From assembly GCF_041378895.1 (NCBI RefSeq), contig NZ_CP144212.1, positions 1,845,501-1,909,500 of the forward strand: a stretch of DNA of 64,000 nucleotides. The letters run 5' to 3'. Shown piece by piece: positions 8,221 through 20,657 of the stretch. The notes beneath the pieces were generated by a model. It saw nothing but the letters and a program-made list of their open reading frames with translations. It was not told where the DNA came from and made no database searches. Positions within the stretch are counted from its first letter, which is position 1; every line of letters starts with the position of its first letter. The position numbers and the translations under genes are program-made. Source of the stretch: Dechloromonas sp. ZY10. Its GTDB lineage: Bacteria > Pseudomonadota > Gammaproteobacteria > Burkholderiales > Rhodocyclaceae.

Positions 8221-9078
8221 TCATCCCATCAATCTGGAAAGTTGCGGGTCATTGCGCATCAACAAGCACCAACGGGCTACCGCCGAGAGTTCGGCTGCAG
8301 GGTTGGTCATCTCGCGCACGCGGGCGCAAACTTCGATCAGTTTCGCCTTGGCCGCTGGGTTATTACCTGCGCGACAACGGGCTTTGGCGTTTGTATAGTC
8401 ATCGATCAAGTCGCCCACTTTCTGCCACACCTTGCGACGGGCTTCTGCCAGCGGTACATGCTCATTGAGCTTGAGCCGTTTTACCGTCTCGCTGACGCGC
8501 TCCCGCTCCCATTCCGAAGAACCGGGCGTAGGAATAACCTTGCCTTCTTCATCGAAGGCAATCAGCGACACATCGTCGTCATCAATCGGGTCAAGCAGGT
8601 AACGCGTTTCAGATTCTTCGCATTGCAGGGTATGCGTGGAGCACAGTGAGCCATTCTTGAGCGGAAACCAACCGCCTTTCTTGCGGTTACCGACATTGCC
8701 GCAGATGCGGAAATTCATATAATCGAAAGCCAGCCACCAATAGCCATCGCGCAGGCTGGCATCCAAGGCCTTGGCCTCCTTCTTGGGGCGAAAATGCTCC
8801 ACGTCATAGTGCGAGTAAAGCTCGCGCACTTCTGAAAACCAGCATTTGCCAGCCGACAACGCCAACAACCATTCCTTCAAGGCACCCCAGTGAGTGCTAT
8901 TGGCGTCAATCAGCGCGTTGCGTTCAGCACGCTTGCCGGCTGCATCCAGGATGGCCAGATCGGCCACCAATTGGACAGACTTTGCCTGCCAGGCATCCCA
9001 CTGCTCTGGCGTCCATGGCTTCCAATTCGGGATATCGGTATCGGTAGGACGCTTGCGCCCCAGGTCAATCCAGATCAC
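8221..9078 (-). CDS. HNH endonuclease, PtuB-like
   Basis: This encodes 285 aa from a GTG start that shares its first base with the TAG stop of the ATPase gene, so translation is probably coupled. The HNH core is at about residues 90-140: D92-V-E-H95-FRPKK, then GYWWLAFDYMNF, then GNRKKGGWFPL. This order (EHxxPK, WWLA..N, NRKxxxFP) is that of the TIGR02646/PtuB nucleases found with PtuA-type ATPases in Septu and Septu-like retron loci. The zinc CxxC pairs of some relatives are absent. It is the last gene of the eight-gene defence operon. A DNA nuclease role is well supported by family; target and trigger are unknown. Confidence 0.85.
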   Translation of the reverse strand: MIWIDLGRKRPTDTDIPNWKPWTPEQWDAWQAKSVQLVADLAILDAAGKRAERNALIDANSTHWGALKEWLLALSAGKCWFSEVRELYSHYDVEHFRPKKEAKALDASLRDGYWWLAFDYMNFRICGNVGNRKKGGWFPLKNGSLCSTHTLQCEESETRYLLDPIDDDDVSLIAFDEEGKVIPTPGSSEWERERVSETVKRLKLNEHVPLAEARRKVWQKVGDLIDDYTNAKARCRAGNNPAAKAKLIEVCARVREMTNPAAELSAVARWCLLMRNDPQLSRLMG

Positions 9079-11171
9079 TAGCGACCCTCCTCACGCAATA
9101 TTTCGTCGATGATAGAGTCGGCGATACGGTCCTGCTCAGCTCGCTCCTCGGGCGTCAGCACGGGTTTTCGGAAGCGCCGGTGTTGCGCCATCTTGCGCAC
9201 AAACAGTGCGTAATCCGGGTCGCGGAAATCGGCGTTCGAAAAACCCAGATCTGCCAACCCAGCAGACAGGCGGCTCAGCTCGGCATCTTCCTCGGGTGTG
9301 CGCGGCGATTTCACGAACAACTCGTTGCGGCGGAACAAACGCCGCTCGGTTTCGCTATCCAGAGTGGATGAGAGCCCGAACAGCTCGCTCTTGAGCAGCC
9401 CGGTCACCCCCATACCCTGCGGGTGCTCATCAGGCACATCGACCACTGTGCGCTCGCCATCACGGCGCAGGATATGAACCTGCTCACGCTTGAGGCTGCC
9501 CAGCATCATCGGATCGTGGGTCGTAATCAGGATTTGCGACCCACCTTGCGCCAGCGTGGCAGCATCCGAGGCCAGCACGCCTTCAATGTCGTCGAAATAG
9601 CGCAGTTTCCAGATTGGGTTCAGGTGGGTATCCGGCTCGTCGAGCAGGAACAGACAATGATCGTCTCGGGTGATACGCATCAGGCCCAGCACGGTGAGCA
9701 TTTGCAGTTCTCCCTCGGAGAGCTGGGTGAAACTTACCTTACCGCCGTGCTCATCGCGTTTCTTGACGGTGATACGCACTTCGTCGATCAGGTCGCCGAC
9801 ATAAGCGCCCTCGGCGTAGCGGAAGAAACTGTGAATGCCGCCGACCAGCTCACCCAGTTGCTTGAGCTTGTCCTGGCTGGGAACAAACAGGTAGAGCTGC
9901 TTCTGTTTCTCGCTGCGACCACGGAAATCGATCTGCTTGGTTGCCTCCTGCTCAATCGGTGCCCAGGCCACTTGCCAGAGTTTGTCGAGGAACTCACTGA
10001 CCACATTGCCACGTGCATACCAGAAGCGCGGATCTCCTTCGTTCAGCTCCAGCTCGTCGAACTTGCCGCCACGGCGCTTTTCGCGCAGGCGGTGTGGCTC
10101 CTTCAGCACAAACAAGGCCGACTCCAGCGATTCAATGTGCAGATTCTTGAGCACCTTCTGAAATACCGGATCGTCGGAGAGCAAACAAGCCAGCAGTACC
10201 AACTGGCTATGGCCACCCCGGCAATAGAACAGGCGGCGCAGGCGGTCGTCGCCAAACTGGTTGCGCGTCTTGTGTTCTTCACGCCGTCTAATTGCCTCGA
10301 CAGTACGAATATCTGCTTCACTGGCAGAAAACTGGGCCAAAAAACGCTCCGGTAGCGTTTCCTCAGTAGTAATTTCCTGGCGTCGATTAAAGCGCCGCTG
10401 ATGCTCCTGAAACAGCGCCTCAATACGCTCATTGCGCCCCGAGTAGTAGGCAAAAATGTGCGATGGCAGCAGCTCCTTGTTCTTCAGCAAATAGCCTTGC
10501 GATTGCGCACGGCCATCGACCCAGACATAGGGGCGCCGCTGCTCTGCGGTCTTCGCCTGTAATTGAACCAGATGGCCACGGATTCGGTAGCTCAGCGTGT
10601 AGTCAAAAGCCGCATCCCGATCCAGATCAACATCACGAAAAATGGTGATGATGGCTTCGATCAAATTGGATTTCCCGGTGCCGTTCTGGCCAATCACCGC
10701 ATGGCTAGAGATACGCTTGGGGGCATCCCCATCGAAGGCTGGTGAGCCATAGGCAGAAAACTGAATATCCAGATCACGCAAATTCTTGAACTGCGGAAGC
10801 TGCAAGTGCTGCAAATGCAGGCCTTGCAGCGGCAAATGCGCAGCTACCCGGTCTACCAGATCGTCGAGCCCCAAGACCCACTGCGAATTGATCGCAAATT
10901 TGCGTTGCCCCTGCTTGGCCACCGTCTCCCACAGCCAATTGGCAATGCGGTGTGCGGGGGCTTCAGGGGCGAATGACACGCCCCAATCCAGATTTTGCGT
11001 CCCCCCCGCGAACCCCAGGCGACGTTTGCTCAGGCGCTGTAGCGCGCAGCCATCGCCCATCAGCACATCCTGCGCCGCCCACGCTGCCAGTGCTTCATCC
11101 CGATCAGCATCATCGGCAAAGCGCAAATTAACGATAAACGGGGAGGATCCCGTATGCATTCCTTTAGCCAT
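9078..11171 (-). CDS. AAA/ABC-type ATPase, PtuA-like
   Basis: This encodes 697 aa from the ATG of MAKGMHTGSSPF. That start overlaps the upstream stop by 8 bp and follows a GGAAAGAG Shine-Dalgarno-like stretch. It is an SMC/Rad50-type (AAA_21) ATPase with Walker A GQNGTGKS at about 161-168, signature LSEGE at about 484-488, Walker B LFLLDEPDTH at about 507-516 and the H-switch ITTHDP at about 549-554. The long middle region holds charged helical stretches. A C-terminal extension of about 100 residues is rich in E/R. Paired with an HNH protein it matches the Septu (PtuA-PtuB) plan. It is longer than typical PtuA, with about 150 residues before Walker A. Confidence 0.88.
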   Translation of the reverse strand: MAKGMHTGSSPFIVNLRFADDADRDEALAAWAAQDVLMGDGCALQRLSKRRLGFAGGTQNLDWGVSFAPEAPAHRIANWLWETVAKQGQRKFAINSQWVLGLDDLVDRVAAHLPLQGLHLQHLQLPQFKNLRDLDIQFSAYGSPAFDGDAPKRISSHAVIGQNGTGKSNLIEAIITIFRDVDLDRDAAFDYTLSYRIRGHLVQLQAKTAEQRRPYVWVDGRAQSQGYLLKNKELLPSHIFAYYSGRNERIEALFQEHQRRFNRRQEITTEETLPERFLAQFSASEADIRTVEAIRRREEHKTRNQFGDDRLRRLFYCRGGHSQLVLLACLLSDDPVFQKVLKNLHIESLESALFVLKEPHRLREKRRGGKFDELELNEGDPRFWYARGNVVSEFLDKLWQVAWAPIEQEATKQIDFRGRSEKQKQLYLFVPSQDKLKQLGELVGGIHSFFRYAEGAYVGDLIDEVRITVKKRDEHGGKVSFTQLSEGELQMLTVLGLMRITRDDHCLFLLDEPDTHLNPIWKLRYFDDIEGVLASDAATLAQGGSQILITTHDPMMLGSLKREQVHILRRDGERTVVDVPDEHPQGMGVTGLLKSELFGLSSTLDSETERRLFRRNELFVKSPRTPEEDAELSRLSAGLADLGFSNADFRDPDYALFVRKMAQHRRFRKPVLTPEERAEQDRIADSIIDEILREEGR

Positions 11172-12174
11172 CTCTTTCCTGCCATTCGTTTTGCAGTTGT
11201 GCCGCCCATGCCCAGGCATCATTTGGCGGCGGCCCGAGCGCCCGCTCCGTTTGCTCATAAAGCTTGCCCAGACGCACCAGCGGTGGCGGATGGTGCTTGC
11301 AAGGGGTTATCGCCCCCACGGCTTCCAAACGTGCCATCAGGCGAAAGAAGGCAGCAATGAACAACAGGTTGTTCCACATCACTTCAGGGCCTTCGGTATG
11401 GGCCAGCAAACATGAGAGTGCGAAGGCGTCAGCATCCAGTTCCATCGTTTGTTCGGCACTCACGTCCGAATATTGAGGAGACTCATAAACGACCCGTCCC
11501 TGTCCGGGCAAAAAACGCATCCGCCAGTGGCCCACGTGTCCTAGTACAACATGCCCCAATTCGTGCAAAGCAACAAAGCGAAGGAGCACGCTACCGACCG
11601 CTCCTCCCTGCACCGCATAGGCGTCATTTGCATGGTGTTTGCGCCCATTCCAGGCTGCGTGCAATTGGCGCTGACTTTGGGCCAGATAGACTTCCTCTGC
11701 CGACTGATAAGTGGCCAAGCTGCCAATCTCATCACCATCGGCGGCCCGAAGAAATGCCTCTGCCAGTAAACAACTTACCCAAAACAATCCCAGATTAATG
11801 CCGATAATTTTTTCATGAGGGGCATGGGCAACTGCCTCGGCAAAAGCATTGCTGGTCATATAGGGAATGAACCCCAGTGCCAGGCGGTTCAATGTCTCAG
11901 ATTGCTGCTCTCCCACATATCTAGCCAAATCTTCAAATAGGTTGCTCTCAGTCCGCTTCAGCCAGTGGTAAATGTCGTCACCGTGTTGCGCCATTTCATC
12001 ACGATGATCCACGCCATAACGCTCATCAACCATCTGGGCGAGTGCTTGTTTTTTAGCATTATCGAGTAGTTTTACACCGGACTCGGCCAGGCTGCGGTAC
12101 ACCACCGAGCCCGGCTCACCTAGTGTAGCGGCTTGTAAAAAGGCCAAATAGTCTTGAGCATTCCTGTTCGACAT
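11164..12174 (-). CDS. HExxH metalloprotease-like protein (second of pair)
   Basis: This encodes 336 aa, starting at the ATG of MSNRNAQDYLAF, 4 bp after the previous stop and behind a strong AGGAG site inside the upstream gene. The zinc motif is H204-E-L-G-H208 (ALHELGHVVLGH), and the probable third ligand is in M-E245-LDADAF, about 37 residues later. This is the HExxH...ExxAD plan of gluzincin-like peptidases such as M48, and of the phage-exclusion Lit (U49) type. There is no signal peptide and no membrane segment, so it is cytoplasmic. No family name can be given with certainty. The substrate is unknown; its place in a defence operon suggests a toxin-like or signalling protease. Confidence 0.75.
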   Translation of the reverse strand: MSNRNAQDYLAFLQAATLGEPGSVVYRSLAESGVKLLDNAKKQALAQMVDERYGVDHRDEMAQHGDDIYHWLKRTESNLFEDLARYVGEQQSETLNRLALGFIPYMTSNAFAEAVAHAPHEKIIGINLGLFWVSCLLAEAFLRAADGDEIGSLATYQSAEEVYLAQSQRQLHAAWNGRKHHANDAYAVQGGAVGSVLLRFVALHELGHVVLGHVGHWRMRFLPGQGRVVYESPQYSDVSAEQTMELDADAFALSCLLAHTEGPEVMWNNLLFIAAFFRLMARLEAVGAITPCKHHPPPLVRLGKLYEQTERALGPPPNDAWAWAAQLQNEWQERDG

Positions 12175-12178
12175 CAGG

Positions 12179-13318
12179 TCAATCTCCTGCTCGTGCCAGC
12201 CAGACTGGTGGCACATATTGGCGAAATACCTTGCGCAAATTGAGGAGCGTCGGCCAGGTATGTGTCTCCAATCGCTCAAAATCGGCCTTGATTTCCTCTT
12301 CGCTACCGAAGGGACGGTAGTGCTTGGCACAAAATGCTGCGCCAGTTTCCATGCCTGCCACGAACATCTTTAGATCTCGCACCTCCCAGACACTGGCCAG
12401 CCCCTCCAGGAAACATTCAGTGCGTATTTGGGGCAAATGGTAGCCAGCACGATAATCGGCAGACTGAACCTGTTCCTCGAAAACATTGAAGGTAAGCAGA
12501 GCTAAAAATGCCATCAACTCACACCAGTAAGGCAGATTGTCTTCGTTGACCTCACCCAGCATGCCGATGCTCAAGGCTTTTGCCATGAAAACCCCGGCAT
12601 AAATATCGGCATCTACCTCCACGGCACGGCGATGATGATCAGCACCCGTACCTTTTTCTCCCTTCCCGGTGTGCAGGGGACGCAAACTCCGATTTTCGCG
12701 CAGGCTGCCAACCCCCAGCGTCTCCGCCGCCCAGGCATTGTGGCCACGAATGATGTGTGCAAACTCGTGATAGAACACCACCAGCGCGGACAGCATGGCC
12801 AGATTCATTGCCAACTGGAAACGCTCCGGGTCACGAGGCTGATTGGCCAGCGGCACCTCCGACCAGGCTGACTGACAGGTCGTCAAATCCCCCAGTTCCG
12901 GCCACACCTCGGCACAGGTAAATGCGCGCAACACGCGATCAGCCAGCCTTACGAAAACGCCAGGGCGGAGCACCATCAAATGCGGCGCCTGGGTCTCATC
13001 CACCTCCCCCAGCGTGGTGACGAAAGCGTCAAACTCGCCGATCCCACCCCGCAACAACACCAGCAGGCTCAAGGGCTCAAGCGCCGCTATAGCCTGCGGC
13101 GATTCCAGATGGTTGCACAGCATCTGGAACATGCCGCGCACGATGGCATCGGTATCGATAGCGGCGGCAGTTGCCAGATCGTTTGCCTGAGCCGACCACG
13201 CCGGCTCGAAAGCTTCCGCCACCTGCCGGTTAACAGGCAGGCTGTTCAGCAAGCGCCACAAGTTCTGGCGATCACCAATGGCCACCCCGTGCAGCAAGCT
13301 ATCGTCCGGTGCGTTCAT
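12179..13318 (-). CDS. HExxH metalloprotease-like protein (first of pair)
   Basis: This encodes 379 aa, starting 13 bp after hsdS. The motif is H184-E-F-A-H188 (VFYHEFAHIIRGH) with a likely third ligand at E234-VDAD, about 46 residues later. A charged loop (about 205-230) separates the two. Apart from this plan it shows little similarity to its neighbour, so the two are not a simple recent duplication. It is cytoplasmic by lack of signal or membrane segments. The C-terminal 100 residues are aromatic-rich, with no known motif. Its fixed place between hsdS and the ATPase suggests it belongs to the defence operon. Protease activity is inferred from the motif only. Confidence 0.75.
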   Translation of the reverse strand: MNAPDDSLLHGVAIGDRQNLWRLLNSLPVNRQVAEAFEPAWSAQANDLATAAAIDTDAIVRGMFQMLCNHLESPQAIAALEPLSLLVLLRGGIGEFDAFVTTLGEVDETQAPHLMVLRPGVFVRLADRVLRAFTCAEVWPELGDLTTCQSAWSEVPLANQPRDPERFQLAMNLAMLSALVVFYHEFAHIIRGHNAWAAETLGVGSLRENRSLRPLHTGKGEKGTGADHHRRAVEVDADIYAGVFMAKALSIGMLGEVNEDNLPYWCELMAFLALLTFNVFEEQVQSADYRAGYHLPQIRTECFLEGLASVWEVRDLKMFVAGMETGAAFCAKHYRPFGSEEEIKADFERLETHTWPTLLNLRKVFRQYVPPVWLARAGD

Positions 13319-13331
13319 GAGCGGCTGGGTA

Positions 13332-15314
13332 TCAGTCTTTCAGCTCGACCCGGGCCGGTTCGGGCTCAACAATCCAGCCATGCGCGACTTCGGTTTTCAA
13401 CTGCTGATAAAAAGCGTCGATCTCGCCGCCGAAGCGCTGCCACAAATCCTTGGCCTCCATTTCCCCGTGATGCCGGGCCAGGATCGTGGCCAGCGGCGCC
13501 TGAGCCTTAATGTCGGGTGCCGTACCCAAGCGTAGCGGGGCGACCAGTTCGGTTTGCGGGGCTTTCATGGGTTCCTCTTCTGGTTCGGTGGTGATGCCGG
13601 TAAAGCTTGCCAGAGTTGCATCAGCCAGTAGTTCAGCCAGGTGCTGTTTCTTTTCCAACTGTTGATGCCAAAACTTGGCTTTTACGGTCAACGCATTCAG
13701 CTTGGCCAAAATCGCACGCTGCTCATCAAGCGGCGGAATTGGCATTGGAAAACTACGAAGCTGCGTCATGTTGATCGACGCCAAATTGGTTGTCTGCTTT
13801 GACGCCCCAGCAAAGTAGTCGCGGCCAAGGCCAGAATTGAATACAAGTTCGACCCACTCGTTGAGTAAGGATAAAGAAGGTACCCGCGCCTTGAAGACAT
13901 GATTTTGGTGAAGGCAGTTATCGATACCACCTCTCCAAATGGCCGTGCGACCTACCTTGTCCCAATCACCGCCTTCCGTGATGAGCAAGTCGCCTTCTTG
14001 GACAAGGTACTTGTCCAGCTCCTCTTTTCCGATCTGGATCGTCTTCAGATTGGTCAGCTTGAAGAATCCACGCTGGACGTTGGCAACCGCCAGATACGGG
14101 CAAGTAACGACATCGCGCCCTCGTAAATCACGGCCTTTAGTGACACCACCGATCACCACAGCAACCTTATCGAATGGTGCAACTGCCCAATGCTCGGGAT
14201 ACACAACGTCCGAATCTGCAATGGAGATAAGCTTCTGGCGTCGCATCAAACCTGACGTGATGTATTGGTCGCGCAAATTATCGCAATCCGCCACGACTGC
14301 ATCCACAGGCGAAACCGATGTCGATGGCAAGGAAAGCAAACCTCGGACCGCCATGTTCTTCAGTTCGGCGACCAACTCATCCACATCCTCCGGCGCATGA
14401 AAAAGCCGCCCGAAGTTGTCGGCCAGGCATGTCCAGGTGGTTTGCAGTTCGTGCGGGCTGGTGGCGCTGGCGACGGCTTGCAGGATGGACTGGCGCAGGC
14501 TGTTTTGCAGTTTGCGGCGAGCTTGCTGCTGTGTTTCCAGCTTGTCGCACAAGGCCATCAGTTCATCGACTTTGGCGACGATGCGGGATTGTTCTTCGGG
14601 CGAAGGAAAGAAGAGTTCGTAATTTTCAATATGCCCCTTAGTCAGATTATTGATTCCTATGCCTTTGCCTTGATCCGAGACGTAATCCCGGTATTGAGGT
14701 GATTGCATTACCACTCGAATGAATTCACACCGTAACGATGGCATGGGGCGAAATGCACCACAAAATGCCCCAAACCCGAACTCAGTATCTTCAAGGACCA
14801 TTGCGGCCTTTCCAACTAAGCCTTTGCTTCCACTTGACATGGAAATAAGAACGTCACCAGCGCAAAGAATCTGCTCCTTATCAACAAGGTCAGATGGAAC
14901 ATAAACCAAGTCGTCAAACGAAATATTCGCCCCGATGTTATTGGCGCGAAGCAAGCCGGTCATCCCTTGCCCACCTGAGGCACGAGCGACAGCTTTGTTG
15001 TAAGTGACGCCCCGAATTAGCACACCAATTTGACCTAACCTAGCTTTAACCCAACCAGATGGCGCAGGGACTAGAAGTGTGCTCGCCGCGTCACGCCCCC
15101 CCGATGTACGGCGGTATCCGTTTGCCGCTTTATAGTCGGCGAGCTCCTGCTCAAGTTTTTTTAGGGAATCCGCAGCAAGGCTTTCGTTGACTTCAGATTG
15201 CTCGATCAAGCGCCCTGATACAGCCAGAGCTAACACCATCTCCCGCAACCGCGCCACGCCCCCCGGCGCATTCGCAATATGCCCAAACTCGGCCAAAAAC
15301 TTCTGCGCGTCCAT
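13332..15314 (-). CDS. hsdS: type I restriction specificity subunit HsdS
   Basis: HsdS gives DNA target choice to the type I methylase and restriction complex. The 660-aa chain has two target-recognition domains (about 85-245 and 365-530). Each is followed by a conserved helix: SPEEQSRIVAKVDELMALCD after the first, and PPLDEQRAILAKLNAL after the second. It is longer than usual (about 400-480 aa) because of about 95 extra N-terminal residues, a linker of about 100 residues between the domains and a C-terminal tail of about 85 residues that contains a helical domain (ILARHHGEMEAKDLWQRFGG). The start overlaps the DUF1016 stop by one base (TGATG). Confidence 0.93.
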   Translation of the reverse strand: MDAQKFLAEFGHIANAPGGVARLREMVLALAVSGRLIEQSEVNESLAADSLKKLEQELADYKAANGYRRTSGGRDAASTLLVPAPSGWVKARLGQIGVLIRGVTYNKAVARASGGQGMTGLLRANNIGANISFDDLVYVPSDLVDKEQILCAGDVLISMSSGSKGLVGKAAMVLEDTEFGFGAFCGAFRPMPSLRCEFIRVVMQSPQYRDYVSDQGKGIGINNLTKGHIENYELFFPSPEEQSRIVAKVDELMALCDKLETQQQARRKLQNSLRQSILQAVASATSPHELQTTWTCLADNFGRLFHAPEDVDELVAELKNMAVRGLLSLPSTSVSPVDAVVADCDNLRDQYITSGLMRRQKLISIADSDVVYPEHWAVAPFDKVAVVIGGVTKGRDLRGRDVVTCPYLAVANVQRGFFKLTNLKTIQIGKEELDKYLVQEGDLLITEGGDWDKVGRTAIWRGGIDNCLHQNHVFKARVPSLSLLNEWVELVFNSGLGRDYFAGASKQTTNLASINMTQLRSFPMPIPPLDEQRAILAKLNALTVKAKFWHQQLEKKQHLAELLADATLASFTGITTEPEEEPMKAPQTELVAPLRLGTAPDIKAQAPLATILARHHGEMEAKDLWQRFGGEIDAFYQQLKTEVAHGWIVEPEPARVELKD

Positions 15315-16363
15315 CAGGCGTCCTCCCCACGGTTTTCCAGGCGGGCGCGGGAACGGGTGATGGCTTCGTGCAGTTTGGCTTGCAGCACTTCCCGGGGGGG
15401 CAGGCTGGTGAGGTATTCGGCAATGTGGATGCCGCTGGCGTCCAGCTCCAGCAGTTCAACCTGCTCCTGCTTTTTGCCGCTGCACAGGATGATGCCTAGC
15501 GGTGGCGCCTCGCCCGGCTCCTGTTCGTGTTTGGCCAGCCAGCGCAGGTACAGCTCCATCTGGCCTTTGTCGGCGGCCTTGAAATCGCCCAGTTTGAGTT
15601 CAATGGCGACCAGCCGTTTCAGGCGGCGGTTGTAGAGCAGCAGGTCGATGTAAAAGTCGTCGTTGTCGATCTGGAGGCGCTTTTGCCGGGCAACAAAGGT
15701 AAAGCCGGCACCCAGCTCCAGCAGGAAGTTTTCCAGCTCGCGCAGGATGGCGTCTTCCAGGTCTTTTTCCAGATAGCGGTCTTGCAGGCCGAGGAAATCG
15801 AGTATGTAGGGGTCTTTCAGCACCAGTGCCGGGGTGAGGGTTCCGGTTTGGCGCAGGGTGGCCAGCTCTTGCTCCAGCAACTGCTCGGGCTGCCGGGAGA
15901 GGGCGGTGCGCTCGAAAAGCTGGGAGTCCAGCCGGTCTTGCAGGGTGCGGGTGCTCCAGCCTTCCTGCTGGCACATTTGCAGGTAGAAGTCGCGTTTGAG
16001 CGGGTTGTCGATGTAGATCAGGGTCTTGATGTGGGTCCAGCTCAATTGTCTCCGCACTGCGGAGACAATCTCTTGCGAGGGGATGGCTTCGGCAAAACGC
16101 AGCATGTGCCGCAGGTTTTTGGCGGAGAAGCCGCGCCCGTAGTCGGCTTCCAGTTGTTTCGCCAGTGCCTGGACAATCTGTTCGCCGTAGGTGGCGCGTT
16201 CGCTACCCAGTATTTCGGTGCGAATGCGGTGGCCGATGTGCCAGTACAGCATGGTCAGCGCACTGTTGACCGCCGCCGCCAGTTGCCCACGGCTTTGCTC
16301 GATCAGTTGGCGGATGTCGCCCAGCAGTTGCGGTGCGGCAGTCTCCGCTGCCGTGGGCTTCAT
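15314..16363 (-). CDS. DUF1016 (PDDEXK) nuclease-domain protein
   Basis: This encodes 349 aa from the ATG of MKPTAAETAAPQLLGDI, which overlaps the hsdM stop in an ATGA. The N-terminal DUF1016 helical domain is clear (YWHIGHRI, YGEQIVQALAKQLEADYGRGFSAKN split over about 45-90). The C-terminal half carries a PD-(D/E)xK nuclease core: DDFYIDLLLYNRRLKRLVAIELKLG, with D and the E-x-K triad. Such proteins often sit inside type I restriction loci or defence islands; a role in DNA cleavage or repair is inferred and not proven. It has about 125 extra in-frame codons upstream that overlap hsdM and are rejected. Confidence 0.88.
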   Translation of the reverse strand: MKPTAAETAAPQLLGDIRQLIEQSRGQLAAAVNSALTMLYWHIGHRIRTEILGSERATYGEQIVQALAKQLEADYGRGFSAKNLRHMLRFAEAIPSQEIVSAVRRQLSWTHIKTLIYIDNPLKRDFYLQMCQQEGWSTRTLQDRLDSQLFERTALSRQPEQLLEQELATLRQTGTLTPALVLKDPYILDFLGLQDRYLEKDLEDAILRELENFLLELGAGFTFVARQKRLQIDNDDFYIDLLLYNRRLKRLVAIELKLGDFKAADKGQMELYLRWLAKHEQEPGEAPPLGIILCSGKKQEQVELLELDASGIHIAEYLTSLPPREVLQAKLHEAITRSRARLENRGEDA

Positions 16364-18174
16364 GCTTCGGCCTCCGGGCTGAAATGGTGCGCCAGGGCGG
16401 CGGCCAGCTCGCTTTTGAGCTGATTTTCGGTCTCTTCGATTTCGCCCAGCAGCTTTTTGTATTTCTCCAGTAGCAGGTCGGGGTCGTGGGTTTCTTCTTC
16501 CGGGGCGTTGGGGTTTTTGAGGTCGAGGTTGAAGATCGGCCAGTAGAGGCGATCGCCGGCGGCTTGGGCGTCGCGGGCTTGCAGGCGCAGCGGTTCGGCC
16601 TTGGCGCGCAGTTCGGCAATCTGGGCGTCGATCTTTTCGCGGTAAGCGGTATCCGTGGTGCCGACCAGGCTCTTGCGCAAATCCCCCGCTTCGCCTTCCA
16701 GCGCAGCGGCCTGATTGTTCAGCTCGTCGGCGCGTTGCCAATGCGGCTGTGCAGCGGCCTCGGCCTGTTCGCGCTTGCTCTTGAAATCGACCTTCCAGGC
16801 CTTTTTGTCAGCGATATCTGGATCGTCGTTGTATTGCTCACGCTTGGCAAAGTTATCAGCTTCGTCTCCCCACCACTCTTTGATGGGATCGAACTCTTCA
16901 ATCCGAATGGGCTTTGTTTTTGAGTAACTTTTGTATCCCGTAGGGTAAGGGTGCTCGTAGAACCAGATGGTGTCGGTGTGGAAGTGCTCGGTCCCGTCAT
17001 CCACCGTGGCGCCCTTGGTGAAAAAGAGCAGGTTGGTCTTGATGGTGGTGTAGGGGGCAAAGACGCCTTTGGGCAGGCGGATGATGGTGTGCAGCTTGCA
17101 GTCACGCAGCAGCAGCTTTTTCAGCGCCCCCTTGATGCCCTCACCAAAGAGGAAGCCATCGGGCAGCACCACGGCGGCACGTCCGTTTTCCTTGAGCAGC
17201 TTCTTGATGATCAGCGCCATGAACATGTCGGCGGTTTCGCGGGTGCGCAGATCAGCCGGATAGTCGCTGCCAACGCCATCGTCTTCGTAACCACCAAAAG
17301 GCGGGTTGGTGATGATGCAGTCGACCTTGTCGTTGGCGTTCCACTCGTTCCAGCCAATGCCCAGGGTGTTGCGGTGCTTGATCTGGCTAGGCACGTCGAT
17401 GCCATGCAACAGCATGTTGGTGGTGCATAGCAGGTGGGGGAGCTGCTTTTTTTCGATGCCGTGGATCAGGGTTTCAATGGCGCGTTTATCGTCGGCACTG
17501 GATTTGGTGGTGATCTGCTTGCGGAAGTGGTCGATGGCGGCGGTGAGGAAGCCGCCGGTGCCGCAGGCCGGGTCCATCACGGTTTCGCGCTTGTCCAGGC
17601 GCGGGTTGACGCGATCAGCCATGAAGGTGGTGATGGCGCGGGGGGTATAGAACTCGCCAGCATTGCCGGCGCCGCGCAGGTCGTTGAGCAGTTGCTCGTA
17701 CACGTCGCCGAGCTGGGCGCGCTCCTTGAAGTCATCGAAATGAATGGCTTCTTCCAGTTTTTCGATGACGGCGAGCAACTGGGTGCCGGATTTCATGTAG
17801 TTGTTGGCGTCTTCAAAGACGCTGCGGATCACCGCCTGCTGCTCGCCGTGGGTGGCGTCCAGCTCTTTGAGCTGAGGGAAGAGCTGGTTATTGACGAAGC
17901 TGATGATCTCGCTGGGCGCAATCTGCGGCTGCTTTTTGCCGTCTTGATCCGGTACATACGCCGCCCAGTTTCGCCAGCGGAATTCGTCGGGTAGCGGGGA
18001 GGTGTACGACTTGCCCTGATCCTTGGCGTCGTCTTCCCATTCCCGCTCGCGCTGGTCGAATACTTTGAGGAAGAGCATCCAGGTGAGCTGGCCGAGGCGC
18101 TGGGCATCGCCGTCGACGCCGTCGTCTTTGCGCATGATGTCCTGGATGGATTTGATGGTGCTGCTGAGGTTCAT
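16360..18174 (-). CDS. hsdM: type I restriction-modification methyltransferase HsdM
   Basis: HsdM is the N6-adenine methyltransferase subunit. The 604-aa chain has the N-terminal HsdM bundle (about 5-130), the SAM-binding motif DPACGTGGFL at 201-210 and the catalytic NPPF at 290-293. The C-terminal part is long and includes a coiled segment (about 485-545, rich in A/E/Q/R) ahead of the last helical region. It starts 35 bp after hsdR and overlaps the DUF1016 start by 4 bp. All catalytic motifs are intact, so the host DNA should be methylated at the HsdS target. Confidence 0.96.
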   Translation of the reverse strand: MNLSSTIKSIQDIMRKDDGVDGDAQRLGQLTWMLFLKVFDQREREWEDDAKDQGKSYTSPLPDEFRWRNWAAYVPDQDGKKQPQIAPSEIISFVNNQLFPQLKELDATHGEQQAVIRSVFEDANNYMKSGTQLLAVIEKLEEAIHFDDFKERAQLGDVYEQLLNDLRGAGNAGEFYTPRAITTFMADRVNPRLDKRETVMDPACGTGGFLTAAIDHFRKQITTKSSADDKRAIETLIHGIEKKQLPHLLCTTNMLLHGIDVPSQIKHRNTLGIGWNEWNANDKVDCIITNPPFGGYEDDGVGSDYPADLRTRETADMFMALIIKKLLKENGRAAVVLPDGFLFGEGIKGALKKLLLRDCKLHTIIRLPKGVFAPYTTIKTNLLFFTKGATVDDGTEHFHTDTIWFYEHPYPTGYKSYSKTKPIRIEEFDPIKEWWGDEADNFAKREQYNDDPDIADKKAWKVDFKSKREQAEAAAQPHWQRADELNNQAAALEGEAGDLRKSLVGTTDTAYREKIDAQIAELRAKAEPLRLQARDAQAAGDRLYWPIFNLDLKNPNAPEEETHDPDLLLEKYKKLLGEIEETENQLKSELAAALAHHFSPEAEA

Positions 18175-18209: not shown

Positions 18210-20657
18210 TCAGGCCTGCTTTTGTTCGGGGGAGTCGTAGAGGGCTTGTTCGAGCTCGTGCACGGCCTGGGTGTATTGCTCAACGCTGCCGAAGATGCCA
18301 CGGCGGATCTGGGTTTTGCTGCCGAATTGGTCAAAGGGCGGCAATTCCAGCACCTTGGCGTCTTCAATGTCTTGCACACCGTGGTCGGCGAACTTGTCTA
18401 GCAGGGCTTCAAGGACCGCGCGGGCCTGCTCGCCGTATTTACCGAAGACGTCGCGCTTCTTGACGTTGTTGGCCCGCTCGCGGCGGGTAAGGGGTTTCTG
18501 GTCGAAAGCAACATGAGCCACCAGGTCAAAAACATCCAGCTCGTTACCGTTTGCTACCGCCTGCTGCAATATTTCCAGCGGCACACCACGCTCGGTCAAC
18601 TCTGTCAGCACGGCCTGCTTGCGTTCGGCGCTGTTCCAGCGGCGCAGGAAGTCGGTCAGGGAGCCGAATTCTGCTTGCAGCGCCTTTTTGATGTCGTCCT
18701 TGAGCAGAACGCGGTAGTCCTCGGTGATGAGCTTGCCGTCGGTATCGAGGTATTGCGAACGCTCCACGGCCAGGCGGACGTTGACGTCGTCGACCACATA
18801 TTTGACACGACCGGGGCCACCACCGCCTCCACCCATGTCGCTGCCTTCATCATCATCTCCCGGTGCGCCGGGGTCATACGGTGGCGCTTCGGGCTCGGCA
18901 ACCCCCGGCGGGTTCGGGTCTTCTGGTGGATCAGTGTCAGGGGGGACGACAGGTTCGCCAGGCTTGGGGTCGTAAATCACGACAGGCTCACCGTCAAAGT
19001 CCGGGTCGGCGAACAGGCGTGTGGCCCCTTTGAAGTCCATGATGGTGAAGTAAAGCTTGTGGTAGTCCTCACGCAGGCGCGTGCCACGGCCAATGATCTG
19101 CTTGAACTCGGTCATCGAGTTGATGTTCTGGTCGAGCACGATGAGCTTGCAGGTCTTGGCATCGACCCCGGTGGTCAGCAGTTTGGAAGTGGTGGCGATG
19201 ACGGGATAAGACTCGTCGTTGTCGATGAAGTAGGAGAGCTGGTTCTTGCCTTCGTTGTCGTCGCCGGTGATGCGCATCACGTAGCGGCGGTTGCTGGCGG
19301 CGGCGGGAATCAGCTTGACCAGCTCTTGTCGCATGCGTTCGGCGTGATCCTGGTCATCGCAAAACACAATGGTCTTGGCCATCGGGTCAGTGGCCTTGAG
19401 GTATTCCCAGACCTTGCTGGCGACAAGCCGGGTGCGTTTTTCCAGCACCAGCGTGCGGTCGAAATCCTTGGTGTTGTACTGGCGTTGCTCCACCACTTGG
19501 CCATGTTTGTCGAGCTTGCCTTTTTCGGGGGTGTAACCCACGGCATCGACATCGGTGGCGATACGGATGACCTTGTAGGGGGCAAGGAAGCCGTCTTCGA
19601 TGCCCTGCTTGAGCGAGTAGGTATAGACCGGGTCACCAAAGTAGGTGCTGTTGCTGATTTCTTTGGTTTCCTTGGGCGTGGCGGTCAGGCCCAGGTGGGT
19701 TGCACGGTGGAAGTAGTCGAGCACTTCGCGCCAGGCTGAATCGTCTGCGGCACTGCCCCGATGGCATTCATCGACCACAACCAGGTCAAAGAAGTCTGCC
19801 GGGAATTGCTTGTAGATCTGCTTCCATTCTTCCTTGCCGGTAACCGCCTGATACAGGGCAAGGTAAATTTCGAAATTCTTTTTGACCTGGCGATTGGTGA
19901 CTTTGTGCATGACCTCGCCAAAGGGAGCGAAGTCTTGCTGCATGGTTTGATCGACAAGGATGTTGCGGTCAGCCAGAAACAGGATGCGTTTTTTGGCCTT
20001 GGCCTTCCACATGCGCCAGATGATCTGGAAGGCGGTGTAGGTTTTGCCGGTGCCGGTGGCCATGACCAGCAGCACGCGCGGCTGAGCTTTGGCAATGGCT
20101 TCCACCGCACGGTTGATAGCTACGCGCTGGTAGTAGCGCGGCTCGCGACCGCTGCCGTCGGTGTAGAACGGCTGCTCGATCAGTTTGACCGCTTCAGGTG
20201 CCTCCAGCCCTTTCCACTGCTGGTAGATCGGCCAGAGATCATCCAGTGCAGGAAACTCGCTGAGCGGGAGTTCGCGTTCGGCAGGTTGTGTGATGCCAGT
20301 ACGGTCATGGAGCAGGAAACCATCGCCGTTGCTACTGATGGCAAAGGGGGCATCCAGCATTTCGGCATAGGCCAAGGCCTGCTGCATGCCATGGCCGACC
20401 GAAAAGCGCGCCTGTTTGGCCTCGACAACTGCAATCGGGACATTGGGCCGGGCGTACAAAACGAAGTCGGCACGCTTCGGGCCGCCTTTGGCATCGGGAT
20501 TCTTGATACGTGCGGCAAGCTTGCCCCGCACCATGACGCGACCATCGGTGAGATTCACTTCTTCCCGGAACTGATGCTGCTGCCAGCCGGCCTGCATCAT
20601 GGCGGGCGTGATGAACTTGGTGCAGATGTCGCGCTCACTGAGCTGGTATTTGTCCAT
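18210..20657 (-). CDS. hsdR: type I restriction enzyme HsdR
   Basis: HsdR translocates and cuts unmethylated DNA. The 815-aa protein has an N-terminal nuclease with D64 and E79-x-K81 (ADFVLY...VVEAKQ), Walker A ATGTGKT at about 200-206, DECH at 296-299 and later helicase motifs (TTGVDAKTCKLIVLD, IGRGTRLRED). A Gly/Pro/Asp-rich linker (about 565-610, with GGGGGGPG) precedes the C-terminal EcoEI_R-like domain. It leads the operon, followed by hsdM. A purine-rich site (AGTAGGGGG) precedes the ATG. All catalytic motifs are present. Confidence 0.95.
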   Translation of the reverse strand: MDKYQLSERDICTKFITPAMMQAGWQQHQFREEVNLTDGRVMVRGKLAARIKNPDAKGGPKRADFVLYARPNVPIAVVEAKQARFSVGHGMQQALAYAEMLDAPFAISSNGDGFLLHDRTGITQPAERELPLSEFPALDDLWPIYQQWKGLEAPEAVKLIEQPFYTDGSGREPRYYQRVAINRAVEAIAKAQPRVLLVMATGTGKTYTAFQIIWRMWKAKAKKRILFLADRNILVDQTMQQDFAPFGEVMHKVTNRQVKKNFEIYLALYQAVTGKEEWKQIYKQFPADFFDLVVVDECHRGSAADDSAWREVLDYFHRATHLGLTATPKETKEISNSTYFGDPVYTYSLKQGIEDGFLAPYKVIRIATDVDAVGYTPEKGKLDKHGQVVEQRQYNTKDFDRTLVLEKRTRLVASKVWEYLKATDPMAKTIVFCDDQDHAERMRQELVKLIPAAASNRRYVMRITGDDNEGKNQLSYFIDNDESYPVIATTSKLLTTGVDAKTCKLIVLDQNINSMTEFKQIIGRGTRLREDYHKLYFTIMDFKGATRLFADPDFDGEPVVIYDPKPGEPVVPPDTDPPEDPNPPGVAEPEAPPYDPGAPGDDDEGSDMGGGGGGPGRVKYVVDDVNVRLAVERSQYLDTDGKLITEDYRVLLKDDIKKALQAEFGSLTDFLRRWNSAERKQAVLTELTERGVPLEILQQAVANGNELDVFDLVAHVAFDQKPLTRRERANNVKKRDVFGKYGEQARAVLEALLDKFADHGVQDIEDAKVLELPPFDQFGSKTQIRRGIFGSVEQYTQAVHELEQALYDSPEQKQA

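Follow-up and report, generated by a model that had tools for sequence, protein, structure and literature searches.

Accessory genes lodged in type I restriction operons, and latent enzymes that act on their own host once a phage is sensed, are both represented among the systems closest to the locus described here. RloC and other rlo genes are described as accessory inserts within hsd operons (PMC2610378). PrrC is a tRNA anticodon nuclease, described as kept latent by the type I enzyme beside it until the phage peptide Stp releases it (PMC2610378; PMC3014915; PMC9712102), and its gene lies between hsdS and hsdR, in the order hsdM-hsdS-prrC-hsdR (PMC3014915). Lit is a latent HExxH protease that, according to the same accounts, cuts EF-Tu in the presence of the Gol segment of the T4 capsid protein (PMC2610378; PMC3014915; PMC9712102). 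For the PtuAB nucleases the reported targets vary: the pair of retron-Eco7 depletes tRNA-Tyr and Septu EcB88 cleaves tRNA-Tyr (PMC11555353; PMC13096335), whereas tRNA levels were reported not to fall with the pair of retron-Eco4, and another Septu was reported to cleave DNA (PMC11555353).

The window analysed here, a 64,000-nt stretch of the Dechloromonas sp. ZY10 genome, carries on its minus strand, between positions 8221 and 20657, genes in the transcription order hsdR, hsdM, a yhcG-like nuclease gene, hsdS, A, B, ptuA and ptuB. The type I restriction-modification gene set is complete by Pfam and PADLOC matches, with hsdR (18210-20657) encoding a restriction subunit of 815 aa (Pfam ResIII, EcoEI_R_C and HSDR_N), hsdM (16360-18174) a methylase of 604 aa (Pfam N6_Mtase and HsdM_N) and hsdS (13332-15314) a specificity subunit of 660 aa (Pfam Methylase_S, PADLOC Specificity_I). 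Between hsdM and hsdS sits an open reading frame for a YhcG/DUF1016-type PDDEXK nuclease (15314-16741; Pfam DUF1016_N and YhcG_C, PADLOC PDC-S02), which as called is over-extended upstream into hsdM. ARAGORN also reported a tRNA-Ser (gct) on the plus strand at 15397-15474, opposite the yhcG coding region, a call that is probably spurious.

Behind hsdS comes a block of 2511 nt (10821-13331), measured from the hsdS stop to the codon that aligns with the first ptuA codon of relatives. It holds gene A (12179-13318; 379 aa) and gene B (11164-12174, with its ATG at 12174; 336 aa), both encoding putative metalloproteases, and an in-frame N-terminal extension of PtuA that we call domain C (10821-11171), and it is followed by the ptuA core (9078-10820) and ptuB (8221-9078; 285 aa). 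Read directly in the DNA, A starts 13 nt after the hsdS stop, its TGA is separated from the ATG of B by CCTG, the end of B overlaps the start of the ptuA frame by 8 nt (common sequence ATGGCTAA), and the TAG of ptuA shares 1 nt with the GTG of ptuB. The initial annotation of this region had given the last three spacings correctly (4 bp, 8-bp overlap, 1-bp overlap) and had placed these genes in the hsdR operon; the shared orientation and tight spacing hold, and what they predict is co-transcription of A, B, ptuA and ptuB with the hsd genes as one operon. For A, B and C the frame given here has the best codon score of the six and no stop, under a codon model for which the remaining operon genes served as training set. 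Their G+C (0.54-0.60) is similar to that of the flanking genes, so composition shows no sign of recent arrival, and the repeat listing showed no trustworthy insertion signature.

The ATPase/HNH pair at the end of the operon had been recognised as PtuAB-like, and PADLOC agrees, with matches of PtuA to PDLC00293 (E = 5.2e-203) and of PtuB to PDLC00343 (E = 2.6e-108). The ptuA core encodes an ABC/AAA ATPase (Pfam AAA_21) whose translation contains a Walker A motif (GQNGTGKS), LSEGE and LFLLDEPD. PtuB is an HNH-type nuclease in which His95, Asn122 and Asn131, presumably including the catalytic residues, are invariant in a seven-row alignment; it does not have the cysteine pairs present in some relatives. 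The scores stay under the NCBIfam equivalog cut-offs for PtuA and PtuB (35.9 of 500 bits and 54.4 of 150 bits), models that name retron Ec78 effectors, and no PrrC model appeared for PtuA among the 25 of its 117 PADLOC matches that were listed.

The junction between hsdS and ptuA was compared with that of relatives. A scan of reference genomes with a PtuB alignment returned at least 589 stretches, at least 509 of them encoding relatives, and the best 80 loci, picked by two peptide patterns and ranked by similarity to the PtuB of the window, were kept, so that the scan may have passed over a locus in which A or B accompanies a diverged PtuB. These relatives reach 87% identity, and 46 of them (L024-L069) lie at 49-87%. 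With gene presence judged by phmmer at E up to 1e-3, a PtuA match was found in 77 of the 80 loci, although at this threshold it could be another ATPase; PtuA and HsdS were found together in 72, in every one of which the PtuA match is below 1e-15. The eight loci left out of the junction count (L061, L062, L073, L084, L086, L092, L097 and L099), in which HsdS and PtuA were not both seen, are mostly at contig ends, and some are short. In 66 of the 72 readable junctions ptuA lies directly behind hsdS, starting at most 30 nt from the hsdS stop or having an open frame that overlaps hsdS; when eleven junctions were compared, most had the ptuA ATG 1-2 nt after the hsdS stop, against 2511 nt in the window.

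No homologue of A or B was found by phmmer (E up to 1e-3) in any of the 80 loci, the sole tblastn match at E up to 1 was a stretch of 29 residues of B in L045 (E = 0.64), and blastn with the whole A+B+C block gave no match in these loci, returning only the window's own copies among all loci searched. Other insertions do occur at the same place. Single unrelated genes occupy the junction in four other loci, namely a zeta toxin-like gene (L048:7611-8183), a SLFN_AlbA_2/HATPase gene (L049:6779-8248), a RhuM gene (L056:2052-3053) and an RRXRR-HNH gene that is presumably IscB-like (L070:7024-8298); there is a 344-nt gap in L047, and in L094 hsdM lies between hsdS and ptuA. A YhcG-like gene stands between hsdM and ptuA in 20 of the 61 loci with hsdM upstream of ptuA, while among the remoter loci L072 and L080 have hsdM after ptuB instead. 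More remote homologues of PtuA, from five plasmids and two genomes, likewise adjoin hsdS with no protease gene between. On a Pseudoalteromonas plasmid, a HigB-like toxin gene and then an annotated ImmA/IrrE metallo-endopeptidase gene were seen downstream of ptuAB (L018:12528-14018).

To judge from gene order, the conserved unit in the closest loci is hsdR-hsdM-(yhcG)-hsdS-ptuA-ptuB, and we found no paper on this operon type among the matches listed from the open-licence literature. The idea that the two protease-like genes and ptuAB form a four-part module that travels as such can be discarded, with neither A nor B matched in 80 PtuB relatives and 72 junctions read. Judged by the 80 nearest loci, A+B+C looks like a local add-on and not a widespread four-part system, and the window is best described as a cargo insertion together with a gene fusion within a widespread hsdRMS-ptuAB operon, the insert being known from one genome.

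The fusion, the third part of the block, had gone unnoticed before. C consists of about 117 codons that run without a stop straight into the PtuA frame; the other two frames on the same strand score low, and one antisense frame reaches 0.04 and contains two stops. The window's PtuA frame opens 160 residues ahead of Walker A, at the ATG that overlaps the stop of B. The hsdS stop lies no more than 75 codons ahead of Walker A in 66 of the 72 relatives, the PtuA frame begins no more than 63 residues ahead of it in the other six, and none of the 72 has the room or an open frame for a C-like extension. The codon aligned by eye with the ptuA ATG of relatives is a CTG (10820-10818), with a TTG two codons later. 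In each of the 72 relatives a start codon of some kind lies 31-65 residues ahead of Walker A; in the window the TTG lies 41 residues ahead, with AAGG before it, and so a form of PtuA without C may also be made from this internal start.

C itself matched nothing in Pfam or in plasmids, and a scan of 180 genomes at E up to 0.1 gave it weak matches in 26, the best outside its own genome being at 0.0038. An alignment of 43 residues at 37% with L106 (E = 2.4e-6 against L106 alone, 0.001 against all loci) was taken as a chance match, L106 and L108 resembling what we assume to be an RfaE/HldE-type enzyme; L112 and L113 gave no clear alignment. It should be noted that L084:7572-9923, beside ptuB and with no hsd match in the stretch examined, encodes a PtuA-like ATPase with in-frame upstream repeats that we take to be leucine-rich, perhaps another N-terminal PtuA fusion.

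The initial annotation had treated hsdRMS as a neighbour of the PtuAB pair, a view that we reject in the light of the junctions (ptuA directly behind hsdS in 66 of 72), the identities and the correlation between HsdM and PtuA. Those of the L024-L069 loci that gave a match share 64-86% of HsdM residues and 69-94% of HsdR residues with the window; for HsdS the figure is 29-59%, apart from partial matches at 62-78%. Distance matrices were computed for the 38 of these 46 loci with all five genes, plus the window. HsdM and PtuA distances correlate with a Mantel r of 0.79, a value reached in none of 999 permutations, and the correlations for HsdR-PtuA (0.42), HsdR-HsdM (0.38) and PtuA-PtuB (0.35) are weaker. 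With the HsdM-PtuA correlation the highest, PtuA appears to go with the methylase and PtuB to be exchanged more; the matrices cover operon genes only, and shared host descent may therefore contribute to that correlation. PtuB alleles seem to have been swapped behind a conserved PtuA in L054, L055, L058-L060, L063, L066 and L067, where PtuB is 54-57% and PtuA 78-83% identical to the window.

That two genes with HExxH...ExDAD marks lie between hsdS and the PtuAB-like pair was right down to the residue numbers. A carries H184-E185-x-x-H188 and E234-V-D-A-D238, B carries H204-E205-x-x-H208 and ELDAD, and these marks give both products the predicted zinc-protease look for which they were first singled out. 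A by itself matched no family in Pfam, PADLOC, NCBIfam or PHROGs and nothing in plasmids, and among 369 genomes of the class it matched only its own. Searches of 297 family genomes matched its own, L019, which was kept, and L020 (E = 8.3e-4), which was dropped because the matched frame lies within another gene, presumably flavoprotein-like, in a different frame. Among viral contigs the one match kept was L022, an IMG/VR contig (L104, L115 and L120 are the same contig), and a profile search of 190 order genomes matched two, its own and that of L117/L118; L119 proved to be a chance match, antisense to a phage gene.

The three relatives kept (L019, L022 and L118) are remote, two of them aligning at 20-27% identity, and they lie elsewhere, with no hsd or ptu gene beside them in the stretches read. 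To the extent that such remote relatives are informative, A occurs next to unrelated genes, the outcome named at the outset as one that would refute the module. L019, which comes from the same family, is a single gene, with YHEFCH and ETDAD, beside what we take to be recB/recC-like genes. L022 (7611-8777) has YHEFAH and EMDAD and lies on a phage contig in the orientation opposite to that of the surrounding genes, which are presumably phage-like; it matches the PADLOC Lit model (E = 2.3e-7), and its own tblastn relatives are one phage record annotated as peptidase M48 (E = 3e-4) and two Rhizobium plasmids (E = 1e-3). L118 is a lone gene with QQLAH where HExxH is expected, so that the motif, put forward at the outset as a mark to be conserved among homologues, is kept in two of the three. 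The comparison with Lit made from the start has support for A through the phage-borne L022, while A itself has no Lit match and B reaches only E = 0.0064 (15.7 bits, cut-off 274) against NCBIfam Lit. We regard A as a probable distant Lit-like protein, the link to Lit passing through this one relative.

B has weak matches to the PADLOC models peptidase_U41 (1.9e-6) and capP (4.2e-5) and to PHROG 1914 (1.3e-4), and its score against Pfam M78 (ImmA/IrrE), 15.0 bits, is under the 22-bit gathering cut-off. No homologues were found in plasmids, phages or viral contigs; in the genus one genome of 76 matched, its own, and in the family two of 297, its own and L023 (E = 0.0085), the latter dropped as a chance match of 36 residues. 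The PADLOC peptidase_U41 model at E up to 1e-5 matched none of 185 genomes and none of 14 controls, and since it misses even the window's own genome that scan is uninformative. A and B are not convincingly alike by BLAST (E = 0.044 in a single comparison), but a profile alignment of B with the A family joins their HExxH regions (probability 53, E = 1.3e-4), so the two may be distant relatives. AlphaFold models of A with one relative (mean pLDDT 37.6) and of B alone (39.8) were too poor for a fold search, and sequence searches of the PDB gave matches only at E = 0.049 or worse.

The operon anatomy, the lack of proteases from hsdRMS-ptuAB in relatives, the insertion and the uninterrupted frame from C into PtuA can all be read in the sequences, and from them we can offer a proposal for the function of this locus. 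The tight position of ptuAB behind hsdS suggests a logic like that of PrrC, with restriction first and nuclease shutdown if restriction is beaten. By analogy with PrrC, and in keeping with the co-inheritance, the restriction complex would hold PtuAB silent as EcoprrI does PrrC, and a phage that disables or evades restriction would lead PtuAB to stop translation or nucleic acid metabolism. The target is best left general: DNA cleavage, first assigned to the pair, is not a safe assumption with tRNA-Tyr reported for two PtuAB systems and DNA for another (PMC11555353; PMC13096335), nor should tRNA be assumed here, given retron-Eco4 and the DNA-cleaving Septu. A and B would be latent zinc proteases, a second, Lit-like suicide layer cutting a host or phage protein after infection is sensed; for A this follows from the link of one relative to Lit, and for B from its motif. 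C would put PtuA under a partner specific to the window's variant, possibly the A/B proteases. We give about an even chance to this composite operon, in which hsdR-hsdM-yhcG-hsdS with a 3' PtuAB forms a restriction-guarded nuclease and the 2.5-kb cargo adds the proteases as a suicide layer. The stronger version, in which the proteases license PtuA through the fused C once a phage defeats restriction, making one layered, protease-gated nuclease device, is a long shot.

A simpler reading takes A and B as a stand-alone abortive-infection pair parked here for expression, and C as fused to PtuA by accident, without any part in coupling. A solitary relative of A (L019) and one carried on a phage contig (L022) fit this well, as do the four loci with single unrelated genes in the same slot. 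Had the insert left ptuA untouched, however, one would not expect the frame of C to be open and codon-like throughout, nor the old ptuA start to align with a CTG, and we consider this reading unlikely, though by no means far-fetched. C can also be given a role of its own, as a pro-domain or sensor holding PtuA inactive until A and/or B cut or bind it on infection, releasing PtuAB. Only the locus carrying A and B was seen to have C, whose reading frame continues into PtuA and whose first codon overlaps the stop of B; yet the association comes from one locus, with no C in the 72 relatives read, C has no clear relatives, and the possible TTG start would yield a PtuA lacking C. A gated Septu of this kind strikes us as rather improbable.

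It is also conceivable that B, and perhaps A, is a regulatory protease of the ImmA/CapP type, which would cut a repressor or inhibitor and so switch the operon on, instead of being a suicide enzyme. CapP and M78/IrrE are indeed among the weak matches of B, but the M78 score is below the Pfam cut-off and the Pfam scan of eight window proteins turned up nothing recognisable as a repressor, which leaves this an improbable account. The composite operon, with a restriction-guarded PtuAB and a protease layer added locally, is the reading we prefer.

This analysis shows PtuAB recurring in type I restriction operons in which, in the closest loci, PtuA diverges in step with HsdM, and these two observations make a restriction-guarded Septu a testable idea. 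The junction between hsdS and ptuA is a cargo slot and a place to seek new defence genes, and the variant in the window is a direct test case for protease gating of a PtuAB nuclease. If proteases do act on C, this would be a protease-gated nuclease in bacterial immunity.

Set beside the known systems, the locus resembles several in part. PtuA matches TIGR04435, the restriction system-associated AAA family ATPases, whose name records the same association, at E = 4.5e-34, but its 118 bits are below the cut-off of 300 and by that rule it is not a member. Like Lit of the e14 prophage, A and B have the look of HExxH zinc proteases (PMC3014915), and the A relative L022 matches the PADLOC Lit model, but the two window proteins, encoded by two genes, have no convincing Lit match themselves. 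As with PrrC and EcoprrI, a type I locus carries the gene for an NTPase-linked nuclease beside hsdS (PMC3014915); here, however, it is PtuA with PtuB as its HNH partner, and silencing by the restriction enzyme is an analogy. As with RloC and the rlo inserts, accessory genes have been put into an hsd operon (PMC2610378), in this case two protease-like genes and a fused domain, behind hsdS. With Septu the window shares an adjacent ATPase and HNH pair with intact motifs and PtuA and PtuB as the best PADLOC models. Unlike Septu, it belongs to a group in which hsdS accompanies ptuA (72 of the best 80 relatives), there is no reverse transcriptase among the eight window proteins scanned with Pfam, and the locus adds an N-terminal PtuA domain and an upstream pair of putative proteases.
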